From assembly GCA_949283235.1 (NCBI GenBank), contig CASDRY010000038.1:1-64000 (forward strand): DNA of 64,000 nt. The letters are read 5' to 3'. Below are positions 17,551 through 23,537 of the stretch, in pieces. The notes below the pieces were generated by a model. That model searched no databases. It saw nothing but the letters and a program-made list of their open reading frames with translations, and was not told the origin of the DNA. The DNA is from an uncultured Spirochaetales bacterium (GTDB lineage: Bacteria; Spirochaetota; Spirochaetia; Sphaerochaetales; Sphaerochaetaceae). How positions within the stretch are numbered: position 1 is the stretch's first letter; each line of letters starts with the position of its first letter. Both the position numbers and the translations under genes were made by a program.

Positions 17551-18093
17551 TTATTCAGCATCCTCTGTTGTTTCCAGAGGCTGAAGTCCTTTTATTGAGA
17601 TATCGACATTATATCCCTTGCTGTCCAGATACTGAAGAATTTCCTCAAGGGTATAGTTCTCCAGACCGACAGTGTCAGATACATAATGAACATTTGAGCT
17701 ATCTGCCTGAAGCGCAAAAGATGGAAGAATATCCTCTGTCTGCTCTGCAGATGTACCGAAGAACATGAAACCGCCAATGAAGATGAAGACAACCGCTGCC
17801 GCCGCAGTAATCAGAGACGGCAACGATATCTCCAGGCGTCTTCGGATAAAGCTGACCTTTTTTCCGCTCTGGAAATACTTCTTATCAAGAAGGGAGTAGA
17901 TTCTATCTTTATTACGCAGTAAAAGCTCCTCCGAAAAAGCCGCGTTCTGAATCCTCCTATCCAGAGCCCTCATATCCTCAAGATGCTTCTGACAAGCCGC
18001 ACAATGCTCAAGGTGTTCCTCCACCTGTGATCTGTATGGCTCTGAAAGCTCCCCATCGAGATAAGCTGACAGCATCTGCGAATCAATACACAT
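17551..18093 (-). CDS. Anti-sigma factor with zinc-finger (zf-HC2) domain and one membrane segment
   Basis: 180 residues from ATG 18093, preceded by GGAGG at 6 nt; a longer in-frame start lies deeper inside the sigma gene. Residues 1-45 form the anti-sigma zinc domain with HLEHCAACQKHL. A single membrane segment lies at about residues 95-115 (SLITAAAAVVFIFIGGFMFF), followed by a short extracytoplasmic tail (DSKGYNVDISIKGLQP). It overlaps the ECF sigma gene by 11 bp and most likely holds that sigma factor at the membrane until an envelope signal releases it. Confidence 0.88.
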   Translation of the reverse strand: MCIDSQMLSAYLDGELSEPYRSQVEEHLEHCAACQKHLEDMRALDRRIQNAAFSEELLLRNKDRIYSLLDKKYFQSGKKVSFIRRRLEISLPSLITAAAAVVFIFIGGFMFFGTSAEQTEDILPSFALQADSSNVHYVSDTVGLENYTLEEILQYLDSKGYNVDISIKGLQPLETTEDAE

Positions 18094-18616
18094 CCCTATC
18101 CTCCGTCGAAAGGGCCTCCTCAAGCTTCTTCCTGGCCCTGTAAACCCTCACCTTCACATTCGTCTCGGAAATGCCAAGCACTTTAGCTATCGCTTTATAA
18201 TCAAGCCCTGAATACTCCTTCAGCTGTATAACCAGCCTGAGATTCTCAGGAAGACTTTCAATAGCCGTCCTCACTACCCTCTTCTCGTCTGCTTCAACAG
18301 CTACCTGAGCCGCATCGCGTGACTCAACAGAGAGAGAAGGATTATGCCTGGCCTTCTCTACCAGTTCAATCTCACGCTTATTCCGTCTTACATGATTGAG
18401 CGCAAGGTTCTTGGCTACTCTTATCAGCCAGTACTTGGCATCATCCTCGCTCGGGAAGGTCATGTTCTTAACATAAAACCTCTCGAAAGCTTCCTGCGTG
18501 AGATCCTCTGCGATTTCAATGTTATATACGATGTGCATAATCACCTGGATTATCAGATGATAATTCTCATCGTAGATGCGCCTGAAATCATCTCGGTCAG
18601 TGCTCTTTATCTCCAT
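18083..18616 (-). CDS. RNA polymerase sigma factor, ECF (sigma-70 family)
   Basis: About 177 residues from ATG 18616; a TTG 15 nt earlier is adjacent to GGAG and cannot be excluded. Region 2 contains AEDLTQEAFERFY and KYWLIRVAKNLALNHVRR. Region 4 contains SLPENLRLVIQLKEYSGLDY and AKVLGISETNVKVRVYRARK, a complete ECF layout. It lies downstream of cysS in the same direction and overlaps its anti-sigma gene. The regulon is unknown. Neither of the usual autoregulatory promoter motifs could be located with confidence. Confidence 0.92.
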   Translation of the reverse strand: MEIKSTDRDDFRRIYDENYHLIIQVIMHIVYNIEIAEDLTQEAFERFYVKNMTFPSEDDAKYWLIRVAKNLALNHVRRNKREIELVEKARHNPSLSVESRDAAQVAVEADEKRVVRTAIESLPENLRLVIQLKEYSGLDYKAIAKVLGISETNVKVRVYRARKKLEEALSTEDRDVY

Positions 18617-18643
18617 ATTATTAACACTCAACTCCGGAAAAGG

Positions 18644-20047
18644 TTACTCAATCCGTTCAAGAATCGGACCAGAAGGCGTATCTTTTACGTTGAAACCTCT
18701 TCTCTTAAGCTCATCCCTGATCTCATCAGCCCTCTTGAAATCCTTGGCCTTCTTCGCTGCAGTCCTCTCCTCAAGAAGCTTCAGATCGTCTTCAGTACCT
18801 ACTGCCTCCTTCTTTGGAGCTTCTGCCTTCGCAAGATCAAGGCCCAGTATCTCATCCATATGATAGATAGCAGCAAGCTTATCTGCACTGGATACTTCTC
18901 CGTCCTTCACAAGCTTCCAGAGCATGGAAAGCGCCTGAGGAGCACTGAGATCATTCTCCATCGCATCATCAAAAGCTTTCATATACTCAGCAGCCTTTTC
19001 AGAAGGAGCTGAAGAAGGAGCCGCCTCAGCTTTAAGCTGGCAAACTCTCTCTACAAGACCTTCGCGTGCACTCTTCGCGGCATCCAGAGCCTCATATGAG
19101 AATCTAAGCTGACTTCTATAATGTCCTGTCAGACAGAAATAGCGGTAATCAAGGGCATTGTAGCCTTTATCCAGAAGAGTCTGCAGCGTCACAAAACCAC
19201 CAGAAGACTTAGACATCTTAGCATTTCCCATAAGAAGGAACTCACCATGACACCAGTAATTGACCCAGGTCTTCCCTGTTGCGGCCTCAGACTGCGCTAT
19301 CTCATTAGTATGATGCACTGGAATTGCATCGATGCCACCACAGTGGATATCAAAATGCTCTCCAAGATACTTCATCGACATCGCGGAGCATTCAATATGC
19401 CATCCAGGGTATCCTCTTCCCCAAGGCGAATCCCAGGTCATAGCCTGTCCCGCGAACTTGGAATTAGTGAACCAGAGTACAAAATCCTTTGGATTCTTCT
19501 TATTTGAATCGACCTCGATCCTAGCTCCGCTTTTGAGCTCATCGATATTGAGACGGGCAAGCTTTCCATAATCATCTATCGAATCGATGGAGAAGTAGAC
19601 ATTTCCACCTGCTGTATAGGTATGCCCACCCTCTTCGAGCCTCTTTATAAGCGCTATCATATCATTGATATGGTCTGTTGCCCTGCAGACTATATCAGGT
19701 CTGATGATATCAAGCTCCTCCTCGTCCCTGAAGAAGGCTTTCGTATAGAACTCAGCAATATCCCAGACAGTTTTGCCGCTTTCCCTAGCACTCTTCTCCA
19801 TCTTATCTTCGCCATCATCGCCATCACCTGTAAGATGTCCCACATCCGTGATATTCATGACATGCTTGACGCTGTACCCAGCACGGCGAAGAGTACGTTT
19901 CAGGATATCCTCAAAGATATATGTTCTAAGATTTCCGATATGCGCATAGTTATATACTGTAGGGCCACAACAGTACATCGAGACATGCCCCGGAACAATC
20001 GGTACAAAATCCTCAATACGTCTCGACATTGTGTTATAAAGCTTCAT
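18644..20047 (-). CDS. cysS: Cysteinyl-tRNA synthetase
   Basis: 467 residues from ATG 20047, which has AAGGAGGG 4 nt upstream. Motifs: MYCCGPTVYNYAHIGNLRTY (zinc cysteine and HIGH equivalent), WHIECSAMSMKYLG and FDIHCGGIDAIPVHHTNEI (zinc ligands), and NAKMSKSSGGFVTL (KMSKS). It charges tRNA-Cys. The ECF sigma factor gene follows within about 30 nt, so housekeeping cysS probably drives basal sigma/anti-sigma expression. Upstream TTGAGA, 18 nt, TATTAT is a credible promoter, back to back with that of murB. Confidence 0.97.
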   Translation of the reverse strand: MKLYNTMSRRIEDFVPIVPGHVSMYCCGPTVYNYAHIGNLRTYIFEDILKRTLRRAGYSVKHVMNITDVGHLTGDGDDGEDKMEKSARESGKTVWDIAEFYTKAFFRDEEELDIIRPDIVCRATDHINDMIALIKRLEEGGHTYTAGGNVYFSIDSIDDYGKLARLNIDELKSGARIEVDSNKKNPKDFVLWFTNSKFAGQAMTWDSPWGRGYPGWHIECSAMSMKYLGEHFDIHCGGIDAIPVHHTNEIAQSEAATGKTWVNYWCHGEFLLMGNAKMSKSSGGFVTLQTLLDKGYNALDYRYFCLTGHYRSQLRFSYEALDAAKSAREGLVERVCQLKAEAAPSSAPSEKAAEYMKAFDDAMENDLSAPQALSMLWKLVKDGEVSSADKLAAIYHMDEILGLDLAKAEAPKKEAVGTEDDLKLLEERTAAKKAKDFKRADEIRDELKRRGFNVKDTPSGPILERIE

Positions 20048-20106
20048 AAGCCCTCCTTGACAAGACATAATATTCCGAATTGCCTCTCAATCTCAACTGG
20101 AAATGA

Positions 20107-20141: not shown

Positions 20142-21026
20142 ATGATATCTCTAAGCTGCTTCTCTATCACAGAAGGCATGGATATGAAAAAGCACTCCTC
20201 TTTCTCAACAGGAGGTAAGGCGGAATTCTATGCAGAACCAAGAAATGTATATGATGCGCTAAGTGCTCTTGAGATGGCATATGCAAAAGGCCTTGAAGTA
20301 ACTGTGATAGGAGCAGGAACCCATCTTCTTGTATCGGAAGAGGGAATACCAGGACTTGTCATATCTGCATCCAGCATGAAGGGAATGTCGATAAAAGGAG
20401 ATCTTCTCATAGCATCTCCCGGAGAGACCCTAGACAATGTGATAAACCAGGCTATCGACCACAACCTCATAGGACTGGAAGAGATTGCTGGAATACCGGG
20501 AACAATAGCGGGGGCTGTAGCTGTGAACGCGGAAGCTAATAATCGCTCGATTTCCGATCTTTTCTTTTATGCGGATTACCTCACCCTCAACGGAGAAATC
20601 CATAGGCGTCCATTCTTCTATGACTTCTTCAGCAAAAAAGGTTCATTCTCAACTGATTGCCTGATAATCTCCGTCGCTCTTCGCCTCAAACCCTCAAGAG
20701 CTTCAGCAGAGGCACGGGAAAGGAAAGAGAAATATGTCGAGAAGATGTACATCCCCCCTTGCAGAAGATTCTCAGGAAAGATATTCATGGATAGTCCTGA
20801 AATGAGCGCGTCCGATGCGATAAAGCTCTCAGGTCTTACCGGTTATAATGGAAGCCGTGCTGAATTCTCGGAATACCAGCCCAATTCGATACTGACCTAC
20901 CCTGGCTGCACTTCAGATGAGATATATGCGCTGATACAGCGAGGAAAGAGGACGATAAAGGATAAGCTTGGCATAGAACTCGATACTTCGATAACAATCC
21001 TTGGCTCTTTCAGAAATTCACTCTGA
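20142..21026 (+). CDS. murB: MurB-like UDP-N-acetylenolpyruvoylglucosamine reductase, divergent active site
   Basis: 294 residues from ATG 20142; a longer frame from 20103 would start inside the promoter. The FAD domain is recognisable (VIGAGTHLLVSEEGIPGLVI and EIAGIPGTIAGAVAVNAEA). MurB reduces UDP-GlcNAc-enolpyruvate to UDP-MurNAc in peptidoglycan synthesis. The catalytic landmarks look altered. Where MurB has YR, this protein has FFYDFF. Where GS(V/F)FKNP carries the proton-donor Ser, it has SGKIFMDSP. Where LExEV carries the catalytic Glu, it has LDTSITILG. It may be a divergent enzyme or an inactive homologue. It overlaps the convergent beta-barrel gene by 17 bp. Confidence 0.8.
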   Translation: MISLSCFSITEGMDMKKHSSFSTGGKAEFYAEPRNVYDALSALEMAYAKGLEVTVIGAGTHLLVSEEGIPGLVISASSMKGMSIKGDLLIASPGETLDNVINQAIDHNLIGLEEIAGIPGTIAGAVAVNAEANNRSISDLFFYADYLTLNGEIHRRPFFYDFFSKKGSFSTDCLIISVALRLKPSRASAEARERKEKYVEKMYIPPCRRFSGKIFMDSPEMSASDAIKLSGLTGYNGSRAEFSEYQPNSILTYPGCTSDEIYALIQRGKRTIKDKLGIELDTSITILGSFRNSL

Positions 21027-22041
21027 TAGCAAGATCTAAGCCATCATCAGTCGAGTATTCAGCAATAAAGCTGAAAATATCTCCCTCACCTTCATAAAGC
21101 ATCGCAAGATAAGGAAGCCCATCCTTGTAGCCAAAGGAGAAGTGACCGAAATCAAAGGAAAGGATAAGCCCCTCCTCTGTGTCGTACCCGATATCAAGAA
21201 AAGACCAGCTTAAAGTGAAACATTCTCGATGCCTTCTCTTACCGTTCTTCGTGAAAACACTTTCGGATTCCGCAGCTAGACTAACAGCTCCTAAATTAAG
21301 TTCAGAGCTTACATAAGCTTCCTTCCTAAGATAATCTTCGCTGAAGACAGGAGGAGTGCCATAGAGAACGGAGAATTCGAAATGGAAACCATTCTGCCCG
21401 AAACTTCCACTAAGGCCAAACGTTCCCTCTTCACTGTCTTCAGAAAGAGCAATAAGAGAGCCGTATGATGCATAGAGCGAATAATCATCCTTATTGAATC
21501 CACCTTTCAAAACACCTCTGAATCCAATCTCATCCGCATAGGAGATCAAGCCAATCACATTAAGATATCCCCAGGAAAGATCGAGGCCTCCATAAACAGT
21601 GTCGTATGCTGTACTCATTCCAGGATCTTCGTGAAAACCTTTAGCTTCCCCATTACCGCTTGCAGCTAATAGCGCGGCCTCTATGATACCGCCATCGATG
21701 AATATACCTGAAAGTGCCCTTTCATCAGTTGAATAGATAAAGGAAAAGTCCTCAAAAGAAAGAACAAAACCATCCCTTCCTTCTTTGTTGCTTCCAGGCT
21801 TTATCGCTCTAGGGGAGAGTCCTGAGAATGATGAATGGGGGTTATCAAAGGCATCAAGCAGCCCTGTTCTTCCTATATCCCCGAATGTAAGGAATCCCAG
21901 ATTGATATAAGCTCTCCCAGATGAGAGATTCAACGAACTATTTTCAGCTGAGATAACACCACCCCCTGATGATGAGACAAGTGAAGCGCCCAAAGAGAGG
22001 GAGGAGAGCAGCATAATGGCTATTGACAGCAATTTCCTCAT
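21010..22041 (-). CDS. Exported protein, probable outer-membrane beta-barrel, unknown
   Basis: About 343 residues. The N-terminus is a signal peptide (MRKLLSIAIMLLSSLSLGA). The rest alternates polar and hydrophobic residues with many aromatic and glycine residues and ends in AIRVNF, a terminal phenylalanine typical of outer-membrane barrels. I do not recognise a family. Start is uncertain: in-frame ATG 22056 and GTG 22065 precede ATG 22041, and none has a convincing ribosome site. The 3' end overlaps murB by 17 bp. Confidence 0.7.
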   Translation of the reverse strand: MRKLLSIAIMLLSSLSLGASLVSSSGGGVISAENSSLNLSSGRAYINLGFLTFGDIGRTGLLDAFDNPHSSFSGLSPRAIKPGSNKEGRDGFVLSFEDFSFIYSTDERALSGIFIDGGIIEAALLAASGNGEAKGFHEDPGMSTAYDTVYGGLDLSWGYLNVIGLISYADEIGFRGVLKGGFNKDDYSLYASYGSLIALSEDSEEGTFGLSGSFGQNGFHFEFSVLYGTPPVFSEDYLRKEAYVSSELNLGAVSLAAESESVFTKNGKRRHRECFTLSWSFLDIGYDTEEGLILSFDFGHFSFGYKDGLPYLAMLYEGEGDIFSFIAEYSTDDGLDLAIRVNF

Positions 22042-22172
22042 ACTATTAATACCCATTAAGTGCACTCTTTGGTTAAGGATTCAGGAAAAAGGAATGGAAT
22101 TCGTTTCCTGATAGTGACTTTCCTCCTTTTTTCTGATACCTTTCCCTTCCGTAAATCAGGAGAATTTGAAGT

Positions 22173-23537
22173 ATGGTTATACTTACATTGAACTGCGGCA
22201 GTTCATCTGCAAAGTACCAGGTATATGACTGGGATCAGAAGGATGTGCTCTGTGTTGGTATTGTAGAGCGCATTGGTCTTGAATATTCAACAATCGAGCA
22301 GAAGTCGATTGGCAAAGAGACATATGAGGAACGCTTTTCATCCCCTACACACAAAGAAGCTATTGAGCTCATTCTCAAGATGCTTATTGATGAGAAGTAT
22401 GGCTGTATCAAATCACTTTCAGAAATCGGTGCTGTAGGCCATCGTGTTCTCCATGGAGGAGAGCTTTTCAAGAAATCCACATTGGTTACAGATGAGGTTG
22501 TAAAAGAGCTCAAGGAGCTTATTCCACTTGGACCACTTCACATGCCTGCAAACATCATGGGCATCGAAGCTGCAAGAAAGCTTATGCCGAATGTTCCACA
22601 TGCAATCGTAATGGACACAGCTTTCCACCAGACAATGCCAGAAGAAGCATTCATGTATGCTGTTCCTTATGAGTGGTACACAAAGTACAATGTACGCCGC
22701 TATGGATTCCACGGAACAAGCCATCTCTACTGCGCAAAGCGTGCTGCTCTTCTTCTCGGAAAGAAGAATGAGGATACAAATGTAATCATCATGCATATCG
22801 GTAATGGCGCTTCCGCATGTGCTGTAAAGAATGGTGTATGTATCGAGACATCAATGGGTCTTACCCCGCTTGAGGGCCTTGTAATGGGAACAAGATCTGG
22901 AGACATCGATCCTGCAATCATCCCTTATATCTGCAACAACACAGGTCTTACCGCACAGGATATGGACACATACCTCAATAAGAAGTCAGGTCTTGTAGGT
23001 ATCTGCGGAATGTCAGACAGACGTGATGTTCATCAGGCTGCACTCAATGGAGACGAGAAAGCACAGCTTGGCGTGAATATGGAAATCCACAGAATCAAGA
23101 AGTATATCGGTGCATATGCAGCACTTCTTGGAAGAGTAGATGCAGTTGTATTCACAGCAGGTGTCGGAGAGATGGGTGAACACATCAGATATGGAGCATG
23201 TGAAGGTCTTGAGAATCTTGGAATCATGATTGACAAAGAGAAGAATGATCTTTCCCACTGCCGCAATGCAGAGACATGCATCTCAAAGGATGAGAGCCCT
23301 GTAAAGATCTTCGTCATCCCTACAGATGAGGAGCTTGTAATGACAGAGGATGCATATGCTCTTATGAATGGAACCTATGACATCCATACAAACTTCCACT
23401 ATACATTCGAGAGCCCTGATTATGTAAACAAGGCTCGTGCCCGCGCACTCAAGGAGCAGCTTAAGAAAAAGCCAGAGCTGGAGAGAATCATTGCTCTGCC
23501 TCCTCAGAAGGCTTCCTGCTCAGTAAAGGGTTGCTGA
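22173..23537 (+). CDS. ackA: Acetate kinase
   Basis: 454 residues with all family motifs: [75 protein letters not shown] and [13 protein letters not shown]. It makes ATP from acetyl phosphate in fermentation, or the reverse. AGGAGA lies about 9 nt upstream of ATG. Compared with the usual 400 residues there is a C-terminal extension of about 50 residues, rich in charged residues and ending with two cysteines ([10 protein letters not shown]). Codon use is noticeably uniform, as expected for a highly expressed gene. Confidence 0.97.

Follow-up and report, generated by a model that had tools for sequence, protein, structure and literature searches.

MurB reduces enolpyruvyl-UDP-GlcNAc by means of FADH2, with a serine (or cysteine) as proton donor and with a glutamate and an arginine assisting. 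Among spirochaetes, loss of penicillin-binding proteins (PBPs) was reportedly set out in a 2012 Sphaerochaeta genome paper. Published accounts state that Bullifex porci and Sphaerochaeta are without PBPs 1a, 2 and C, that both keep murA-G, murJ and mraY, with muropeptides detected in Bullifex (PMC7738495), and that S. coccoides has one transpeptidase (PMC4423922). Further afield, murB is listed as lost from mollicutes along with the rest of peptidoglycan synthesis (PMC3313985), and MurB homologues are reported from haloarchaea (PMC12786226).

Set against those accounts, the genus considered here resembles Sphaerochaeta and Bullifex, its relatives within the same family, in its reduced peptidoglycan machinery; unlike them, it appears to have no precursor pathway and to have kept only a recast MurB. 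It resembles the mollicutes in having lost peptidoglycan synthesis, but there murB was lost too, whereas our genus kept the gene and changed it. A literature search turned up no description of an Ornithospirochaeta lacking peptidoglycan, and none of a recast MurB. The best explanation for what we describe below, to which we assign a probability of roughly 0.6, is that peptidoglycan synthesis was lost and that murB, still encoding an FAD-fold protein, was exapted for a different function.

The gene lies in a 64-kb stretch of DNA (64,000 nucleotides, analysed in full and referred to here as the window), in the following setting:

18644..20068, minus strand: cysS (Pfam tRNA-synt_1e), the divergent neighbour that marks the ancestral murB locus
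20142..21026, plus strand: murB orthologue without the MurB catalytic residues (open reading frame with translation, 294 aa, P0001; assigned on Pfam, NCBIfam and fold)
21010..22065, minus strand: unnamed 351-aa gene, convergent with the murB orthologue; no Pfam match, outer-membrane-protein-like by eye only
22173..23537, plus strand: ackA, acetate kinase (Pfam Acetate_kinase), a conserved downstream neighbour in the family

Positions 20142-21026 of the plus strand form a single reading frame of 294 aa, the product of which passes the Pfam gathering scores for both FAD_binding_4 (57.7 bits, against 26.4) and MurB_C (39.1 bits, against 27), and scores 102.9 bits with the NCBIfam murB model TIGR00179, below the curated equivalog cut-off of 144.5. 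By sequence, the solved structures nearest to it are those of MurBs. An AlphaFold2 model built from a 30-row alignment (pLDDT 84.9, pTM 0.79) has the MurB fold: on comparison with the PDB (Foldseek, VIA-align 2), MurB entries came out on top with Z scores of 26.6-31.1, and other FAD enzymes of the superfamily reached 15.4 and lower. The whole fold is like that of the MurBs of S. aureus (1hsk; TM 0.83 by query, Z 30.2) and Listeria (3tx1; Z 31.1), which have both Pfam domains in common with the window protein; the difference from these two enzymes is that the catalytic Ser, Arg and Glu, together with several substrate-site residues, have been replaced. Rfam gave no match at gathering score anywhere in the 64-kb window.

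The murB orthologue is flanked by cysS, with which it is arranged head to head, and by ackA downstream, an order shared with its relatives. cysS adjoins murB at 18 of 23 loci in other families of the class and at 38 of 40 loci in other genera of the family, the latter having ackA near murB in 32 of 40; several loci behind these counts are broken by contig ends. Of 16 named loci from the genus itself, 14 have cysS nearby and 14 have ackA nearby. Quick-method trees were computed for MurB and for rpoB. The genus form is monophyletic in the MurB tree (SH-aLRT 100), has a long stem and sits beside g26, a genus with canonical MurB. As long as long rows were included, the rpoB tree placed the genus elsewhere and not with g26; a second rpoB tree, from which eight long or redundant rows were excluded, paired it with g26 (SH-aLRT 90). 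Horizontal gain of an unrelated MurB was considered and rejected, as the synteny stands against it and so does the second rpoB tree, which agrees with that of MurB. The window gene, which occupies the orthologous locus, is a murB orthologue by vertical descent. The nearest sequences to the genus form are the MurBs of g26, g36 and g40, which share the cysS-murB-ackA order; unlike the genus form, they keep Tyr-Arg, Ser/Cys and Glu, and unlike our genus, their genomes mostly have MraY and one transpeptidase.

Homologues of the 351-aa gene occur near murB at 12 of the 16 genus loci, and are retained where murB has been deleted. After cysS and on the same strand, the window carries genes for a sigma factor and an anti-sigma-like zf-HC2 protein (17551-18631), a pair conserved next to cysS both within the genus and among several relatives.

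Active-site positions were compared between 30 aligned rows from the genus and a canonical set of 32 MurB rows from the class and family. They fall in the window as follows:

20310..20324, plus strand: FAD phosphate loop G57-A-G-T-H61, with the canonical Asn changed to His
20634..20639, plus strand: place of the Tyr-Arg/Lys catalytic motif, K165-K166 (by alignment)
20778..20780, plus strand: place of the catalytic Ser/Cys of G[S/C]xFKNP, Lys213 (by alignment to 1hsk and spirochaete MurBs)
20790..20792, plus strand: place of the Asn of FKNP, Asp217 (Asp in 26 of 30 genus rows)
20877..20879, plus strand: place of the His of the HxN motif, Gln246 (Gln in 26 of 30 genus rows)
20988..20990, plus strand: place of the catalytic Glu of LExE[VI], Ser283 (by alignment)

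At the Ser/Cys position, where every canonical row (32/32) retains Ser or Cys, the genus rows have Glu (14), Gln (8) or other residues (8, including one Cys) and never Ser. At the catalytic Glu position, Glu is present in 32/32 canonical rows and in 0/29 genus rows, which have Ser (26), Thr (2) or Gln (1), the thirtieth row being cut short and therefore gapped there. The Arg position holds Gln in 23 genus rows, Glu in three, Lys in two and other residues in two, with Arg in none; the preceding Tyr is present in one row of 30, and the genus form has neither a Tyr-Arg nor a Tyr-Lys motif. Because canonical spirochaete MurBs also sometimes carry Lys at the Arg position, the change to Lys is not telling by itself. 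Positions fixed in the canonical rows and switched in the genus are N61H, G123A, N217D, H246Q and E283S; Y165 has been lost, and the KGH/KGQ substrate-loop pattern is missing. Since the catalytic losses run through the whole genus, they amount to more than chance.

A preliminary description of this gene had reported the catalytic Ser and Glu as missing, and alignment to S. aureus 1hsk and spirochaete MurBs bears this out, with Lys213 and Ser283 in their places. It had allowed that the residues might be present but shifted; phmmer, MAFFT and profile alignment found no shifted residues and show replacement. Its reading of the Tyr-Arg motif as FFYDFF needs correction, as the motif aligns slightly farther on, at K165-K166 (in SKKGSF). 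Its account of the FAD-binding half as normal holds for most of that half, including the GIPGTI...NA region and the glycines of the GxG loop, and fails at the phosphate loop GxG[S/T/A]N, where the position of Asn (32/32 canonical rows) is occupied by His61 (His in 30/30 genus rows).

The change from Asn to His could weaken FAD binding. A covalent flavin attached through His61 is not claimed, because the covalent His of cytokinin-dehydrogenase-type enzymes presumably lies one residue before the place of His61. The main rival to exaptation as an FAD-fold protein is that the recast MurB is a catalytically dead, flavin-free protein confined to protein-protein or structural work. The disappearance of the catalytic residues and the invariant His in the phosphate loop are what such a protein might show, but the retained flavin region and loop glycines argue for a flavin site, and the genome context (murB loci and window neighbours) points to no partner, nor to a substrate that would suggest a specific function; we consider this rival unlikely.

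For the rest of the pathway, we searched an order sample of 139 genomes, comprising one family and 22 genera, in which our genus—including Candidatus Ornithospirochaeta (stercoripullorum, stercoravium)—is represented by 48 genomes, all of them drafts and the window's own genome 85% complete. MraY was found in 0/48 genomes of the genus, against 63/139 across the order, and a PBP transpeptidase in 0/48 against 59/139. Mur_ligase_M gave weak matches in the genus, usually one per genome, at most two, and zero in four genomes; most pathway-keeping genomes have three to six. Of the four genus matches checked, three (L303, L304 and L305) are FolC and one (L306) is PgsB-like, just below its cut-off. 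Among 36 genus genomes, EPSP synthase gave a single match in 32, none in G033 and two in three (some being fragments); both of the two that were checked are AroA and not MurA, so the MurB substrate is seemingly not made. As far as matches were checked, MurA and the Mur ligases (MurC-F) were thus not found in the genus.

With MraY and transpeptidase absent and the checked Mur matches otherwise assigned, MurB is left without a visible source of substrate or a downstream pathway. Drafts can lack genes and the genus is fast-evolving, but with the pathway missing from all 48 genomes, assembly gaps are an unlikely cause, and peptidoglycan synthesis appears to be gone from the genus. The preliminary description had proposed a changed cell-wall pathway and likened it to the loss of PBPs in Sphaerochaeta. 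MurB catalysis is indeed unlikely and the wall biology unusual, but the pathway appears gone rather than changed; the parallel is likewise inexact, in that MurB is canonical and one transpeptidase is present in the peptidoglycan-keeping genera of the family.

Seven other genera of the family (g45, g46, g27, g28, g32, g38 and g42; 25 genomes, mostly small) also have no MurB, MraY or transpeptidase. Their loss of peptidoglycan was probably independent of that in our genus. Constraining our genus to a single wall loss with g45, g27, g28, g32, g38 and g42 lowered the log-likelihood by 37 (AU p 0.063) in a test from which eight rows were excluded, including the long or redundant ones and the sole row for g46; a single loss common to our genus and the MurB-less genera is therefore not favoured, though not formally rejected.

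In family members that keep MraY, such as those of g26 and g40, most MraY scores fall short of the NCBIfam cut-off, a hint that peptidoglycan synthesis in the family may be relaxed or altered. MurBs from g31 (L298, L299) and g34 (L300) have the catalytic residues on very long branches, and these carriers lie close to the wall-less g45 group in the rpoB tree.

Within the genus, the low-scoring form of MurB is present in 40/48 genomes, none of which (0/40) has a match over the NCBIfam MurB cut-off; in other genera of the order, 65 genomes do. A profile built on the genus form recovers the same 40/48. A normal second MurB, which had been suggested as a way to explain the pathway, was looked for and discarded: the window's own genome has one MurB match in total, and in none of the genus genomes does any match exceed the cut-off. 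The remaining eight of 48 genomes have no murB orthologue by either the MurB or the genus-form profile. In four of these (G012, G026, G030 and G088; cysS loci L312, L311, L309 and L310, respectively), cysS is followed directly by the next conserved gene, murB having been cleanly deleted between them, so its role is dispensable in some lineages. Contig ends lie nearby in G005, G021 and G094, and cysS was not found in G010. Two of the murB-deleted genomes, G012 and G030, have very long rpoB branches. In G019 and G020, both small genomes, the orthologue has diverged strongly.

Such deletions and divergence, coupled with loss of the rest of the pathway, are what might be expected of a functionless murB relic, decaying and kept by chance, but three observations make that reading improbable. 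By the Nei-Gojobori method, dN/dS between genus murB pairs is 0.018-0.067 in seven of 12, with synonymous sites saturated and pN low in the other five, which include both pairs containing the window's own gene; these values are as low as those for canonical MurB (0.025-0.118 in 10 of 11 pairs from g26 and g40, the eleventh pair being identical). On this computation, the murB orthologue is under purifying selection and, where present, is not decaying. Matches to the MurB profile contain no internal stops in the 40/48 genomes that carry it, although longer matches to the genus profile cross a stop in 6/40, and the new residues are fixed through the genus.

Least probable of all is a MurB still at work in a cryptic or altered cell wall with other residues for protonation: the unchanged fold and locus, the strong purifying selection, the Ser at the old Glu position in 26/30 rows and the Cys at the Ser position in one of 30 are in its favour, but MraY and transpeptidase are missing from 48 genomes, the AroA identity of the checked EPSP synthases leaves the substrate seemingly unmade, and the Tyr and the KGH/KGQ pattern have gone as well.

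Given that no catalytic residue is kept as such and that MurA was not found, we infer strongly from sequence that the recast protein has left the MurB reaction, and less firmly that it most likely binds FAD and either acts on another substrate or serves in sensing. Under exaptation, a vertically inherited murB would have persisted in a genus that lost the rest of peptidoglycan precursor synthesis. During or after that loss, the protein would have retained the fold of MurB and most of its flavin half, with the catalytic and substrate-site positions passing to a new conserved set (His61, Pro205, Asp217, Glu241-Phe242, Gln246 and Ser283). The resulting protein would no longer reduce enolpyruvyl-UDP-GlcNAc, and may instead be a flavoenzyme for some other small substrate, or else a flavin-dependent sensor or partner protein. 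We give about even odds to the fuller proposition that, in a gut-spirochaete genus without peptidoglycan synthesis, murB has become the gene of a new flavoprotein without leaving its locus, and that this flavoprotein has a conserved active site of its own and either another reaction or a role in sensing.

If this is true, the presence of murB in its usual place would be compatible with a bacterium that makes no peptidoglycan, and surveys that use murB as a peptidoglycan marker or as a drug target would misread such genomes. A core cell-wall enzyme would have been kept under full selection for another job, outliving the loss of the wall. The family would then offer a test bed of neighbouring genera, some having the full pathway, some retaining only a recast MurB and some having none of it.
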